Assembly (NCBI RefSeq): GCF_023520795.1
Contig: NZ_CP046605.1
Span: 2,215,438 to 2,279,437 of the forward strand
DNA: 64,000 bases
DNA from: Corynebacterium accolens
GTDB taxonomy: Bacteria; Actinomycetota; Actinomycetes; Mycobacteriales; Mycobacteriaceae
Direction of reading: 5' to 3'
The notes under the pieces were generated by a model. It saw nothing but the letters and a program-made list of their open reading frames with translations, was not told the DNA's origin and ran no database searches. Of the stretch, positions 108 to 4,484 are shown in pieces. The position numbers and the translations under genes were made by a program. Position 1 is the first letter of the stretch; each line of letters opens with the position of its first letter.

Positions 108-1286
108 GTGACCCACGCCCCTCGCCCACCGCTGTATCACCGCCTCCGCTCGGCGATGACCCTCCAGCGCACCGCAGCATTAATCGCCGCACTGTGCGTA
201 GCGCTTACCCTGCTCGCAGCGTTTCTCACCCCAACTGAGCATCAGCTATCCGCGGCCATCATCGGGCTCATCCTCACGGCGATCACCGCCTCTGTGTACC
301 GCTACCCCAAGACCATGACGGTGGCGTTCCTGGGCATCTGGGTCGCTGCCATCCTCACGGTGGGCATCCCCTATGCCAGTTGCGTATTCCTCGCCCCGGT
401 CTTCCTCGCCGTCTTCGCGTTTCATGGCACTAAATGGCAGACCTTCTTCCTGCTCTTGGCATTTTGGGGTGTCGGCCTTATCGATCCTGGCACGCACCGG
501 CTGGTTTTCCTCCCGGCGCCCGCGCTGGTCTGGGGCATGCTTTTGGGCGTCAGCGCCCTTATCGGCAGCACGCTGGCGCATTCCGCCAAGCGCTACAAGA
601 AGGCGATGGTGGAATGGAATAACGACGTCAAGCGCCGCCAGACCGACTTGGCCGAAACCCTCCACAATTCCGTGGTCTCCAGCCTGACGGTCAATACCAT
701 GCAATTAGAGGCCCTGAGCTTGGAATACGCCAACGATCCTGGCCTTAGCCGACGCCTTACTGAGCTTAGCGATGCCATGCGTGCATCCATGTCCGAGGTC
801 CGCGCGCTCACCAAAGTACTACGCACCAATATTGAGGGCGCCACTGAGGCCACCAGTCTTGGGACGCTGGCCCCACCCACCAGCTTTGCCCAGCTGCTTA
901 GCCGCGAGGAAGAGCGGCTCTCCAAGCTCAATCGCCGCCCAGTGGTCAACATTAGAGGGCACGATTTCTGCCCCGAATTTCCTCCCACGGTGCTCGAATC
1001 CATCGCCGCTATTACCACCGAGGCGTGCCTGAACGCCGTGAAGTACTCGCCTCCCGGCGCCGAGATTGCCATTTCGGCGCGTCCGCACATGGGCTGGACG
1101 CAGCTTAGGCTGAGCAATCCCATTGCGAAGCCCACGAGCACGTCGGCGGAGACATCGTCAGGCATTGGGCTTTCATCCATGCAGCGCATCGCAGCAACTA
1201 TCGATGCCAGGTTGGATGCGAGGGGCACCGACAAGCGCTGGGAGCTCACCCTATCTCTGCCGCCTTCGGCGCATAAGGAGCGTTAA
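108..1286 (+). CDS. Membrane sensor histidine kinase, NarL/DesK-type (HisKA_3)
   Basis: This is the sensor half of a two-component system. About six hydrophobic segments lie between residues 20 and 157 with almost no extracytoplasmic loop, followed by a cytoplasmic kinase. The phosphoacceptor is His186 in an ETLHNSV motif, a HisKA_3 dimerisation sequence. The HATPase shows the N box (Glu305, Asn309, Lys312) and a G box (GIG at 352-354). The input region matches no sensor domain I recognise. The GTG start at 108 is chosen because it gives a full-length protein; ATG at 156 is an alternative and would trim 16 residues. A small peptide gene and the response regulator follow on the same strand, so the three probably form one unit. 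Confidence 0.9.
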   Translation: MTHAPRPPLYHRLRSAMTLQRTAALIAALCVALTLLAAFLTPTEHQLSAAIIGLILTAITASVYRYPKTMTVAFLGIWVAAILTVGIPYASCVFLAPVFLAVFAFHGTKWQTFFLLLAFWGVGLIDPGTHRLVFLPAPALVWGMLLGVSALIGSTLAHSAKRYKKAMVEWNNDVKRRQTDLAETLHNSVVSSLTVNTMQLEALSLEYANDPGLSRRLTELSDAMRASMSEVRALTKVLRTNIEGATEATSLGTLAPPTSFAQLLSREEERLSKLNRRPVVNIRGHDFCPEFPPTVLESIAAITTEACLNAVKYSPPGAEIAISARPHMGWTQLRLSNPIAKPTSTSAETSSGIGLSSMQRIAATIDARLDARGTDKRWELTLSLPPSAHKER

Positions 1287-1377
1287 TTATGCCACGCCGC
1301 ATGGCAGGGTCGCGCCCCCTTCTATTAAGCTATGCCTTGCTTATTTTGACGTAGATTTTATGACAAGGAGATTGGTC

Positions 1378-1533
1378 ATGCAGACCGCGCTCGCTAGTAT
1401 CCTCACGCCCTTAATGATGTCCACCTCCCTGTTCGGCGCGGATCTCACGCCCGGCGATCTGCCCCAGAACACCAAGTACGAGTCCTCCGTAGAACTCGTC
1501 TTCGGCTGCCCGGCCCCATGGTGCTTCGAGTAA
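1378..1533 (+). CDS. Small peptide (51 aa) between kinase and regulator genes
   Basis: ATG at 1378 is preceded by AAGGAG at 1364-1369 with 8-nt spacing, a good ribosome-binding site; ATG at 1360 in the same frame is less likely because it lies upstream of that site. The peptide has a hydrophobic N-terminal half (residues 2-20), a polar middle, and ends in FGCPAPWCFE with two cysteines three residues apart. The stop lies 16 nt inside the response-regulator gene, which itself lacks a clear ribosome-binding site, so the two look translationally coupled. No family is recognised. Leader-plus-short-tail layout beside a kinase is what a secreted signalling peptide or a small membrane accessory would look like, but no dedicated export or maturation gene is adjacent. 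The function is inference. Confidence 0.55.
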   Translation: MQTALASILTPLMMSTSLFGADLTPGDLPQNTKYESSVELVFGCPAPWCFE

Positions 1534-2198
1534 AAACGGCGCTGCTGCTTGTCGATGACGACCCCCTCGTCCTCGAGGCCCTAGGCCACTACTTTGCCAC
1601 CGCCGAGGACATGGAGGTCAGCGCCACCGCAGAAAACGGCAAGGACGCCCTGGAGCAGCTAAAGACCAACGACATCGATGCGGTTATCGCCGATATTCAC
1701 ATGCCAGAAATGGATGGCACCGTATTATTGCGCGAGATCAACAAGCTGGAGGATCCCCCAGTTTTCATCGCGATGACGGCGATGGATAACGATGACACCC
1801 TCAAAGAGGTCATGTCCCACAAGGCCGCAGCCTATATCCTCAAAAGCTCCAAGCCCGCCTATATCCAAGACACGGTCCGGGAGGCGGTGCGCGGCGGCAC
1901 GGTCGTAGCCCCGCAATCCTTAACGCGCCTCTTCCAGCAGATGCCGGAGCTGCAGACCGACGATGACGACGCGGCCGCCGCGCCGGCCCACGCACCGGAA
2001 ACGCCCAATATCTCCCCGGCACAAGAGCGCATCCTCGACCTGGTCTGCGAGGGCAAATCCAATGAGGAAATTGCCACCAGCACCCACTATGCCGCCGGCA
2101 CCGTCAAGAAGTACGTCTCCAGCCTGCTCAGCGAATTCCACGCAAAATCTCGCCTCGAACTCGCCGTTAAAGCACTGAAAGCCGGTTACGGAAAATAG
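1518..2198 (+). CDS. Response regulator, NarL/FixJ family
   Basis: 226 residues. The receiver domain has the acidic cluster Asp13-Asp15 and phosphoacceptor Asp59 in IADIHMPEMDG. After a linker of about 20 acidic and Ala/Pro-rich residues comes a LuxR-type helix-turn-helix at about 160-226, with the family pattern EGKSNEEIA...GTVKKYVSSLL. It is the cognate partner of the kinase at 108-1286. The ATG at 1518 overlaps the end of the small peptide gene; GTG at 1521 is an alternative. A 14-bp terminator hairpin follows the gene. The target genes are unknown; the convergent surface-protein gene at 2337-4355 is a candidate by position only. Confidence 0.92.
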   Translation: MVLRVKTALLLVDDDPLVLEALGHYFATAEDMEVSATAENGKDALEQLKTNDIDAVIADIHMPEMDGTVLLREINKLEDPPVFIAMTAMDNDDTLKEVMSHKAAAYILKSSKPAYIQDTVREAVRGGTVVAPQSLTRLFQQMPELQTDDDDAAAAPAHAPETPNISPAQERILDLVCEGKSNEEIATSTHYAAGTVKKYVSSLLSEFHAKSRLELAVKALKAGYGK

Positions 2199-2336: not shown

Positions 2337-4355
2337 TTAAGCGTTGCGGTTCCTACGCACCAGGAAGAGACCGCCTGCAATAGCCATGATTCCGGCAATA
2401 ACCAGTCCAATGACAGACGCGCCGGTATTGGCAAGGCCAGTGGTTCGCTGCGAGTGGTCACCCTTGGCAGGGGCTGCAGCCGTCGTGCTGGTGGCGGCAT
2501 GAGACTGCGAACCGTTCTGCGGCTGGGTGGTCTCCTGCTGCGTGCCGGGTTCCCGCGGCTCAGTTCCCTGAGGCTCGCTCGACTTCGGCTTGTCCGGCGT
2601 CGTGCTCGGTTCCTTATCCTTGTTCTTTCCCAACGGCAGCAATGGCACTGGGAGCAATGGCTGCGGCAACGTCGGCGTCGTGGTGGACGAAGGCGTAGGC
2701 TCAGGGCTTCCCGAAGGCTCGCAGTCCGGGTCCTCGGACTCAGGCTCCGTAGAAGGAACTGTGGTCTTGCCACTCTCGCTAGGCGTTGGCTCCGAAGGCT
2801 CGGACGGCTCCGACGGATCCGATGGCTTAGGGGACTCAGACTCCGATGGCTTACACGTCGGCGTAGTCGTCTTGGTCGTCTCCGTAGTCGAAGAAGCAGG
2901 AGTCTCCGAGGTAGTCGTCACCTCCGTAGATGTAGTAGACGAAGGAGAAGATGGCTCAGGATCCTCTTCGGGCTCTGGCTCAGGGTCTTCGGTCTCTGGT
3001 TCCGTGGTCGTTACCGTGGTCTCGCCATCTTCATTGGGCGTAGTCTCCGAAGGCTCTGACGGTTCCGATGGCTCCGTTGGCTCCGACGGTTCAGGAGAAT
3101 CCGAGGTAGTCGTCGCCTCCGTAGACGGAGTAGAAGAGGTAGAAGACGGCTCCGACTCCTTTTCCGTATCCGGCTTGGGTTCGGTCTCGCTTGGAGTAGG
3201 CGCCTCAGGGTTTTCATCGACGGTCAGCGCGGCACTCGCAACATCTTGTTTAAATAGATGCGCATTTCGGCTTTCGACCTTGACACCGAAGTGGTCCTTG
3301 CTGGGATTGAATGAGCAATTAGTAGACCTCACCCGTTGTTTAACGTGGATGGTAGAGCCTTCAGGTATCCATACATCGCCGGCGGAGCCCTTTTCATTGA
3401 ACTTCCATTCATAGCGGCTGAGCCAACGATAGTTTGTCAGATCCGTACCGTCGGCACCCGTATAAATGGTCGGCTTAGCCTGCGGGTTCAGGGTACGCTT
3501 TGGATAAGCGTCACTTGGGAAAACCTTATCGGTGAGATTCTCTCCATTGGGGCCCGTCACCGTAAATTCTGGTTTACCGTTCAATTCGAAGTGGTCAGCA
3601 GTAGTCCCGAGCCACAAATCGGCCATCCAAGTTCCGTAGCGGCCTGGGTTTTCAAAGGTAAGCGTACCTTCCGCATCCCGGTAGCAGGCAGCATTGTCCA
3701 CCTCGCGACCGTTTACCTCGTTCATTTCCCATTTCCCGTACGTCCAGTCCAACGTCGGGCGGATATCGATTTCGGTCGCTACCGTCACACCGAGTTCTTC
3801 TCCATCTTTGACAGTCTCGTTAACCGTGACAGGAATATCGACGCTTAGAGAAGTGTCGGCGCCAAAGGGAGTGGTCGATTTAAACCCAGGGCGAAGCTCG
3901 CCGGTTGCAAATTCAAAAGCAATAGTGTTGTGCTCGTCCACCGTCGGAGCTTGGGTAAGCTCCCGCTTCTTACCGTCGCTCCACTTGAAGTCCAACTTAT
4001 CTACCGATTTGACGGTCAGTTTCGGATTAACATTCAGTTCAAACAAAACTGCGGTGATATCAGACTCGCCATATTTCCATTTTCCCGACTTTGGATAAGG
4101 TGCCGTACCGTCAATTTCGATGTGGGCATTGACGGTTTCACCAGGCTTTACTTTGGTTTTATCCGTGTCCAAAGTAATCCTGGCCGTTTTGGGGCCGTGC
4201 CCCAGGTCGTCACCGTGAGACGGTCCCTCTAGCGACGCGTCAGGAATGAAGGCATTAGCAGACGTAGGGGTTACTACCGCAGCCCCCGCTACCGTCAGGA
4301 GCGAAGCAGTAAGCAACGCCATTACTTTCGTGGAAGCTTTTCTGGAAGTCCTCAT
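2337..4355 (-). CDS. LPXTG-type cell-wall-anchored surface protein (LANTG)
   Basis: 672 residues from the ATG at 4355, which has AGAGG 5 nt upstream; an in-frame TTG at 4370 is less likely. A signal peptide of about 40 residues ends near SANA. An ordered ectodomain of about 340 residues with several Trp and Cys follows. A stalk of about 200 residues rich in Ser, Pro, Glu and Thr comes next, built from two imperfect copies of an EPSEPSEPSE / TTV..TEPE unit. The sorting signal is LANTG, a hydrophobic span and a VRRNRNA tail. A housekeeping sortase elsewhere would attach it to peptidoglycan. The ectodomain family is not recognised; an adhesin role is inference from the architecture. Confidence 0.88.
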   Translation of the reverse strand: MRTSRKASTKVMALLTASLLTVAGAAVVTPTSANAFIPDASLEGPSHGDDLGHGPKTARITLDTDKTKVKPGETVNAHIEIDGTAPYPKSGKWKYGESDITAVLFELNVNPKLTVKSVDKLDFKWSDGKKRELTQAPTVDEHNTIAFEFATGELRPGFKSTTPFGADTSLSVDIPVTVNETVKDGEELGVTVATEIDIRPTLDWTYGKWEMNEVNGREVDNAACYRDAEGTLTFENPGRYGTWMADLWLGTTADHFELNGKPEFTVTGPNGENLTDKVFPSDAYPKRTLNPQAKPTIYTGADGTDLTNYRWLSRYEWKFNEKGSAGDVWIPEGSTIHVKQRVRSTNCSFNPSKDHFGVKVESRNAHLFKQDVASAALTVDENPEAPTPSETEPKPDTEKESEPSSTSSTPSTEATTTSDSPEPSEPTEPSEPSEPSETTPNEDGETTVTTTEPETEDPEPEPEEDPEPSSPSSTTSTEVTTTSETPASSTTETTKTTTPTCKPSESESPKPSDPSEPSEPSEPTPSESGKTTVPSTEPESEDPDCEPSGSPEPTPSSTTTPTLPQPLLPVPLLPLGKNKDKEPSTTPDKPKSSEPQGTEPREPGTQQETTQPQNGSQSHAATSTTAAAPAKGDHSQRTTGLANTGASVIGLVIAGIMAIAGGLFLVRRNRNA

Positions 4356-4484
4356 GGAAACCTCTGGCAAGTAGATGAATAGGGGCTAGAGAATGCTTAA
4401 AATTCAGCCGTGAACATTAACATGAGCTGTGAAAAGCGTGTACCTCATGTACAAGGTTGGACACATATCAACTTCGCATGAGTG

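Follow-up and report, generated by a model that had tools for sequence, protein, structure and literature searches.

The 64,000-nucleotide stretch of the Corynebacterium accolens genome analysed here (the window; G000:C1:2215438-2279437 within a complete 2.47-Mb genome) carries three genes arranged head to tail: a sensor histidine kinase gene, a small open reading frame (ORF) of 51 codons and the gene of a NarL/LuxR-type response regulator. By their domain content, kinase and regulator constitute a two-component system of the HisKA_3 / NarL/LuxR class. The regulator matches Response_reg (84.4 bits) and GerE (34.2 bits); the kinase matches HisKA_3 (30.5 bits), its HATPase_c match (17.5 bits) lies below the 26.4-bit cut-off, and the N-box Asn and one G-box Gly are invariant in 94 aligned kinases. 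The small ORF encodes a hydrophobic leader without basic residues, a net-acidic middle and the C-terminal sequence FGCPAPWC-FE. It overlaps the regulator gene by 16 nucleotides (1518-1533), the regulator ATG lying inside the P-W codons of the peptide. A second in-frame ATG is present at 1360; close relatives start at the codon matching 1378, after an AAGGAG-like site. A first-pass annotation of the window had described a small ORF with a good AAGGAG site and an FGCPAPWCFE end, a 16-nucleotide overlap with the regulator start, and a kinase with membrane segments and no sensor loop; all of this stands at the positions given in Table 1, the last as a compact N-terminal membrane domain judged by hydropathy and alignment only. 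The linkage of peptide, kinase and regulator suggests a signalling system that has not been recognised before.

Judged by its pattern of nucleotide changes, the small ORF is a real gene, the protein product of which is under purifying selection. Nine distinct 51-codon sequences from the clade of the window's locus (the window clade) gave a ratio of nonsynonymous to synonymous differences (pN/pS) of 0.22, versus 1.37 and 2.08 in the two alternative frames. Codons 1-46 alone, outside the regulator overlap, gave 0.21, which rules out that the signal is an artefact of the regulator start. Comparison of the window peptide with eight relatives yielded nonsynonymous to synonymous rate ratios (dN/dS) of 0.05-0.12, and across the 36 pairs of the nine clade sequences FGCPAPWC shows 81 synonymous differences in total and no amino-acid difference. 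In three sister-group genomes (G072, G200, G208) the regulator starts with TTG and the Trp has become Phe, with G-C-P-S-P-F-C retained. Searches against Pfam, NCBIfam, PHROGs and PDB returned for the peptide only weak matches on the signal-peptide side or single chance rows.

Table 1. Features of the kinase-peptide-regulator locus (window positions; aa, amino acids; nt, nucleotides)
Feature	Position	Strand	Remarks
Sensor histidine kinase gene, GTG start, 392 aa	108-1286	+	HisKA_3; membrane domain at about residues 20-160
Codon of presumed phospho-acceptor His186 (H-box LHNSVVSSLT)	663-665	+	Alignment of 94 kinases
Candidate operator/promoter element, degenerate counterpart of the relatives' conserved element	1324-1343	.	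ATTAAGCTATGCCTTGCTTA
Ribosome-binding site AAGGAG of peptide gene	1365-1370	+	7 nt before ATG; similar sites in relatives
Peptide gene, 51 codons, ATG 1378, TAA 1531-1533	1378-1533	+	
FGCPAPWC codons of peptide gene	1501-1524	+	Amino acids fixed in clade, synonymous changes present
NarL/LuxR-type response regulator gene, 226 aa, ATG 1518	1518-2198	+	Response_reg, GerE

The arrangement recurs throughout the genus. In a search with the regulator, 117 of 242 Corynebacterium genomes matched at E ≤ 1e-40; the set analysed comprised 127 loci (122 when five named duplicates are removed). A fixed rule (an ORF on the regulator strand, at least 38 amino acids long, with a start codon, ending between -500 and +60 of the regulator start and closing with C.{3,9}[WYF]C.{0,11}) matched at 102 of the 127 loci, compared with 1 of 127 antisense control windows, 2 of 126 downstream windows and 2 of 104 windows about 1.5-0.9 kb upstream, mostly inside the kinase. 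Without duplicates, a cysteine-ended ORF lies upstream on the same strand at 100 of 122 related regulator loci, in 96 of 113 Corynebacterium genomes. Loss of the frame in relatives, to which the first-pass annotation had pointed as counter-evidence, is the opposite of what we see, and the arrangement, whose synteny it had proposed to check, recurs at these 100 regulator loci. Regulators with as little as 36% identity to that of the window are still preceded by a small ORF ending in a cysteine pair, for example ...IFSCRKNPTLPWCS and ...LLTCREQSRIPWCK. Four genomes have two cassettes each, and three further genomes (G023, G041, G219) carry the peptide at loci left out of the 122 (L055-L063). A scan of named genomes gave Corynebacterium as the genus of the regulator relatives at no fewer than five loci; carriers of the peptide include C. 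lowii, C. aurimucosum, C. amycolatum SK46 and C. vitaeruminis 1285. On this evidence the peptides are a genus-wide family tied to a kinase and a regulator.

The loci that escape the rule are informative as well. Five of the 22 loci without an upstream match carry the peptide gene after the regulator (L236, L238, L243, L247, L249; for L247 and L249 it was seen in the duplicates L137 and L136, respectively), and at L068 that gene is on the opposite strand. By their sequences, L082 and L214 hold decaying copies: in L082 (C. lipophiloflavum, the same locus as L135) an early in-frame stop interrupts the leader (L135:3776-3967), and the L214 peptide ends in PWSK, having lost the last Cys. The L220 peptide is atypical. 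L245 and L246 are of the amycolatum type, on stretches too short to show the peptide. None was found at L074, L089, L090, L096, L242, L250, L255, L263, L269 and L270, nor at the second regulator in L103. The regulators of L250, L255, L263 and L269 are orphans of a sister lineage, with VDNDPLA or ADNDPLA near the N-terminus and with neither a kinase match nor a peptide; the large gene upstream of them we take, by eye, to be HypF-like.

Peptide anatomy is remarkably uniform at the C-terminal end. All 93 peptides with an aligned kinase (L243 was dropped from 94 as a chance ORF) have exactly two cysteines in the end part, separated by 8 residues in 65 peptides, 4 in 20, 7 in six and 5 in two. The residue before the last Cys is Trp in 89 of them, Phe in three and Tyr in one, and a tail of 0-7 residues follows. 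An alignment of 33 peptides has both cysteines invariant and the Trp conserved above 90%, with the loop sequence itself varying strongly between species. As for the leaders, a crude test on 91 peptides with distinct upstream DNA found a hydrophobic stretch in all 91, a basic residue before it in 72 and an A-x-A-like site in 82. All three features of a Sec-type leader were present in 70, so that most members of the family are probably exported. The window clade accounts for 16 of the 19 leaders without a basic residue, and export is less sure there for this reason.

If the peptide is a ligand, the adjacent kinase is the candidate receptor. By hydropathy and alignment, the N-terminus of this kinase, about 160 residues long, is a series of hydrophobic segments joined by short loops, without an ectodomain; Pro67 and Gly153 in it are 98% conserved. 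We compared distances by partial rank correlation, removing the contribution of the other parts, over 58 non-redundant loci with permutation p values. For the peptide end the correlation was 0.22 (p 0.002) with the kinase membrane domain and lower, 0.11 (p 0.02), with the kinase core; the regulator showed none (-0.03, p 0.71). When permutation was confined to clusters of related regulators at three cuts, the membrane-domain signal persisted (p 0.047, 0.013 and 0.003) and that of the core was lost at the two tighter cuts (p 0.35, 0.50 and 0.02). With the chance ORF of L243 included, the three correlations are 0.23, 0.11 and -0.05; dropping it leaves the result slightly weaker. Measured in this way, the peptide co-varies more with the membrane domain than with the core or the regulator. 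The residue after the presumed phospho-acceptor His also differs among the 94 kinases (LHD in 62, LHN in 20, LHG in 11, LHR in one), the window clade having Asn (window 663-668). Asn or Gly in place of Asp may possibly alter the balance between kinase and phosphatase activity. Interrupted kinase genes of the same family, with an internal stop or in two pieces and without a clear peptide, were seen at L298 (G147) and L303/L314 (G032); at L298 a leaderless 40-residue ORF ending in ICWNWCR lies downstream on the kinase strand.

A possible output emerged from the promoters. The commonest 8-mer before the peptide genes, ACGAAAGT (19 of 91), is the core of a palindrome, GGWAC-TTTC-GTWCC, which occurs with up to 3 mismatches before 25 of the 91 genes (shuffles: mean 2.9, maximum 6). 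In 12 genomes chosen for having this palindrome or a near form we counted 13 exact sites, five before the peptide gene, six before a gene that we call S3 and two elsewhere; base counting predicts about one or fewer in all twelve genomes. S3 encodes a protein of about 420 residues with a leader (417 in the palindrome set), and S2 and S1 are smaller relatives of about 190 residues, likewise with leaders. Within 2 mismatches the palindrome is found at 18 of 54 S3 upstream regions (13 of 44 genomes; shuffles: mean 0.18, maximum 2). In one lineage, at the level of sequence, this palindrome is common to the region before the peptide gene and that before an operon for exported proteins. Copies also lie before an amino-acid permease-like gene (by eye), exact in L316 (G203:C1:103132) and with one mismatch in L338 (G066:C1:2149242).

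S3 matches occur in 81 of 242 genomes, 14 of which have only half-length relatives of 28-37% identity. S3 co-occurs with the peptide (60 of 96 genomes with it versus 21 of 146 without; Fisher 8e-15, uncorrected for relatedness). In several species it adjoins the cassette: among loci chosen for a nearby S3 (except L418, which has none), S3, S2 and S1 were resolved in L408, L409, L413 and L414 and are rearranged in L411. The gene set is also found at L420 and L425. In the window genome, whose S3 has 67% identity, S3-S2-S1 lie together, away from the cassette (G000:C1:603679-606124; L419:6680-9125). At loci of the amycolatum type the S genes and the peptide gene are divergent neighbours; in L416 and L417 three half-length S relatives separate the regulator from the displaced peptide. 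Broken S3 fragments, several of them, lie near a contig start at G092:C1:6005-10849, in addition to one open copy elsewhere. Apart from three S3 rows at chance level (E ≥ 0.09), PDB yielded no relative of S1-S3; Pfam and NCBIfam gave nothing over cut-off (best DUF6060, E 0.0019; lactococcin 972, E 0.047, for one S3). The window clade has a different element before the peptide gene, CTAAGC-TWTC-GYTTGTT, its core 49 nucleotides before the ATG. It is present in 8 of 11 genomes when up to one mismatch is allowed, at the cassette only; the window's own degenerate copy is unmatched even at 2 mismatches.

No processing gene is common to the neighbourhoods of the cassette. In 16 neighbourhoods of 16-18 kb, compared through ORFs of at least 90 residues, the kinase was present in 16 and the regulator in 15, and no third gene family occurred in more than five; no processing, immunity, transport or ABC exporter gene was common to them. 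An HSP70-like gene was shared by five (four of the window clade and L283), and two other families by four. This bears out the first-pass statement that no AgrB-like or radical-SAM maturation gene is adjacent.

The reading we favour, and to which we give slightly better than an even chance, is that the peptide is an exported loop that acts as ligand of the adjacent kinase and feeds back on its own promoter, perhaps as a pheromone. Kinase, peptide and regulator would make up a three-gene signalling unit. Export of the peptide would use the Sec route; in the window clade, where the leader has no basic start, that leader may be retained as an anchor. A disulfide between the two C-terminal cysteines of the peptide would close a loop in which Trp precedes the last Cys. 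On the outer side of the membrane, this loop would contact the short loops or helices of the ectodomain-less kinase and change its activity; the direction of this effect and a reporting of cell density we can only infer. The phosphorylated regulator would then act on the promoter before peptide and regulator and, in at least one lineage, on the S3-S2-S1 operon, presumably by binding the palindrome. What this reading builds on is the gene itself, its conservation and linkage, the Sec-like leaders in most peptides, the cysteine pair, the co-variation and the palindrome common to two promoters in one lineage. The first-pass picture of a signal or accessory peptide working with kinase and regulator is retained and extended by a conserved protein, genus-wide linkage, mostly Sec-like leaders and membrane-domain co-variation; its one-off leader-core peptide gives way to a genus-wide family with a Sec-like leader and a C-terminal two-cysteine loop. 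A broader version we advance more tentatively, at somewhat less than an even chance: a Corynebacterium-wide class of cell-cell signalling in which Sec-exported pre-peptides would become disulfide-looped pheromones (Cys, 3-7 residues, Trp, Cys) without a dedicated processing or export gene, to be read by ectodomain-less kinases. By diverging in step with the kinase membrane domain, the peptides would create species-specific 'dialects'. Each system would act on its own promoter and, within part of Corynebacterium, on the S operon.

Several observations weigh against the ligand reading or parts of it. The leader of the window clade lacks a basic n-region, and at L089, L090 and L096 the kinase stands beside the regulator with no peptide found. 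Relatedness in the co-variation analysis was corrected by clustered permutation only, and the signal is weak at the tightest cut (p 0.047). Allowing up to one mismatch, the palindrome gives 50 matches versus 33 for a reversed-pattern control, so that such sites are mostly background. A word common to the peptide and S3 promoters exceeded all shuffles in only 8 of 33 genomes, and in the window genome none did. No second copy of the window-clade element was found within one mismatch, and no further target of a regulon, three other matches at two mismatches comparing with eight for the reversed control. Finally, S3 is unmatched in 37 of 100 peptide genomes (four displaced peptides added), and for 18 genomes with S3 our set contains no peptide; at least three of these 18 (G041, G219, G033) do have one.

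Two alternatives would deny the peptide any function of its own. The ORF is short and belongs to no Pfam, NCBIfam or PHROGs family, as might be expected of a chance ORF without a product; purifying selection and a recurrence far above that in control windows contradict this, making it extremely improbable. Alternatively, the small ORF might only couple or attenuate translation of the regulator. The window-clade regulator begins within the last peptide codons, and no clear ribosome-binding site for it is seen beyond the peptide gene. An overlap of 4-19 nucleotides (by nearest start codon) is present at 41 of 100 loci; most of the window clade has the 16-nucleotide form, which also occurs in another lineage. 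Coupling is plausible as an added feature on account of these 41 loci. As a sole role, however, it is very unlikely in view of the selection on amino acids, the 59 loci without overlap and the Sec-like leaders, and the copies relocated downstream of the regulator or, in L068, to the other strand exclude it for the family as a whole. We rejected both alternatives on the strength of the control windows, purifying selection and relocated copies.

It is harder to dismiss a peptide that is exported and yet stays at the producing cell as a subunit or lid of the kinase, reporting through its cysteines on envelope redox state, metal or damage. The missing ectodomain, the close linkage and co-variation with the membrane domain, and a window-clade leader that could be a membrane anchor would all fit. 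The rare loss of the Cys pair (L214, L220) fits this role and that of a ligand equally. However, the loop varies strongly between species, and a chemical sensor might be expected to be constant; on balance we regard such an accessory as rather unlikely, at about one chance in every four. The peptide could also be an output under control of kinase and regulator, either acting as an antimicrobial or working together with the exported S1-S3 proteins. Many bacteriocins are small cysteine-containing peptides, the peptide and S3 promoters share a palindrome in one lineage, and the amycolatum-type gene lies beside the S genes. An effector role is possible on these grounds. Yet the peptide genomes without S3 speak against it, as do the lack of an immunity or transport gene common to the neighbourhoods and the usual position of the peptide between a kinase and a regulator, with co-variation pointing to the kinase membrane domain. 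We therefore consider an output less probable still, though not negligible. The exported ligand of the adjacent kinase remains our preferred reading.

Such a ligand system would resemble several known ones without coinciding with any. ComQXPA of Bacillus employs a pre-peptide with an important Trp near the C-terminus, which is isoprenylated, and ComQ as the third gene. Like the cassette, it pairs a polytopic HisKA_3 kinase with a NarL/LuxR-type regulator and a short pre-peptide with Trp near its end (here before the last Cys in 89 of 93). Unlike ComQXPA, the 16 neighbourhoods share no ComQ-like isoprenyl-transferase gene, the peptide is encoded between kinase and regulator or downstream of the latter, and it has a Sec-like leader and two cysteines. 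Agr systems likewise have a small pre-peptide and a Cys-based ring, with sensing, as presumed here, by a polytopic kinase; the cassette differs in lacking an AgrB-type membrane peptidase gene common to the neighbourhoods, in having a LuxR-type (GerE) rather than LytTR regulator, and in its two conserved cysteines near the C-terminus. Three-component bacteriocin-inducing systems with Gly-Gly leaders also cluster peptide, kinase and regulator and have exported proteins as output, whereas the cassette leaders are Sec-like (70 of 91) and no ABC exporter is common to the neighbourhoods. Closer to home, the heme systems HrrSA and ChrSA (CgtSR8) combine, by description, HisKA_3 and LuxR-type proteins with several kinase membrane helices; the accessible part of a review of corynebacterial two-component systems mentions no peptide (PMC3353115). 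CgtSR7 of C. glutamicum, as described there, has a HisKA_3 kinase and a 230-residue LuxR-type regulator, the same classes as in the cassette, and one locus tag is skipped between Cg0707 and Cg0709; CgtS7 has a PspC domain, and none was found in the window kinase (PMC3353115). Envelope-stress systems of the LiaFSR/CgtSR7 type differ further in that no LiaF-like partner is common to the neighbourhoods.

In a literature search of partly accessible sources we recognised no description of a kinase-peptide-regulator cassette. For C. glutamicum, the available part of the review of two-component systems names five regulators of LuxR type, and a peptide is mentioned nowhere in it (PMC3353115); in that of a review of quorum sensing in Actinobacteria Corynebacterium is entered only by LuxR-type domains (PMC4748050). 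A paper on lantibiotic resistance, followed as a lead, concerns, in its accessible part, ABC transporters and peptidases (PMC8003753). In 401 genomes of the family, the 18 strongest among the listed matches to a whole-peptide profile (E ≤ 1e-7) are all from Corynebacterium. Listed matches in other genera begin at E 2e-5 and nearly all cover the signal-peptide side only; weak ones in G366 and G404 (E about 0.002) reach the end and contain an internal stop. Absence of the peptide elsewhere is only weakly supported by this profile, because it missed the window's own genome. A kinase membrane-domain profile, run on 301 genomes of the family, gave matches under E 1e-6 in the genus only. Nine weaker ones in other genera have no such peptide gene, except L305, where a leaderless 46-residue ORF with the motif lies at the kinase start.

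In Firmicutes, two-component systems that respond to peptide signals are well known. If the proposed reading is true, Corynebacterium would have a peptide language of its own, carried by a cassette in at least 96 of the 242 genomes searched. Its bacteria may sense their own released peptide through a signalling system that has so far gone unnoticed, with a concrete ligand, a receptor and, in one lineage, an output. The claim is directly testable, since the ligand would be short and easily synthesised. It also offers a way into a conserved operon whose exported products (S1-S3) have no known family. Beyond the cassette, the window encodes on the minus strand (2337-4370) a convergent surface protein of 677 residues that has an LPXTG-type anchor and is rich in Ser, Pro and Glu over a long stretch; L286 has a PutA-like gene as the next one instead.

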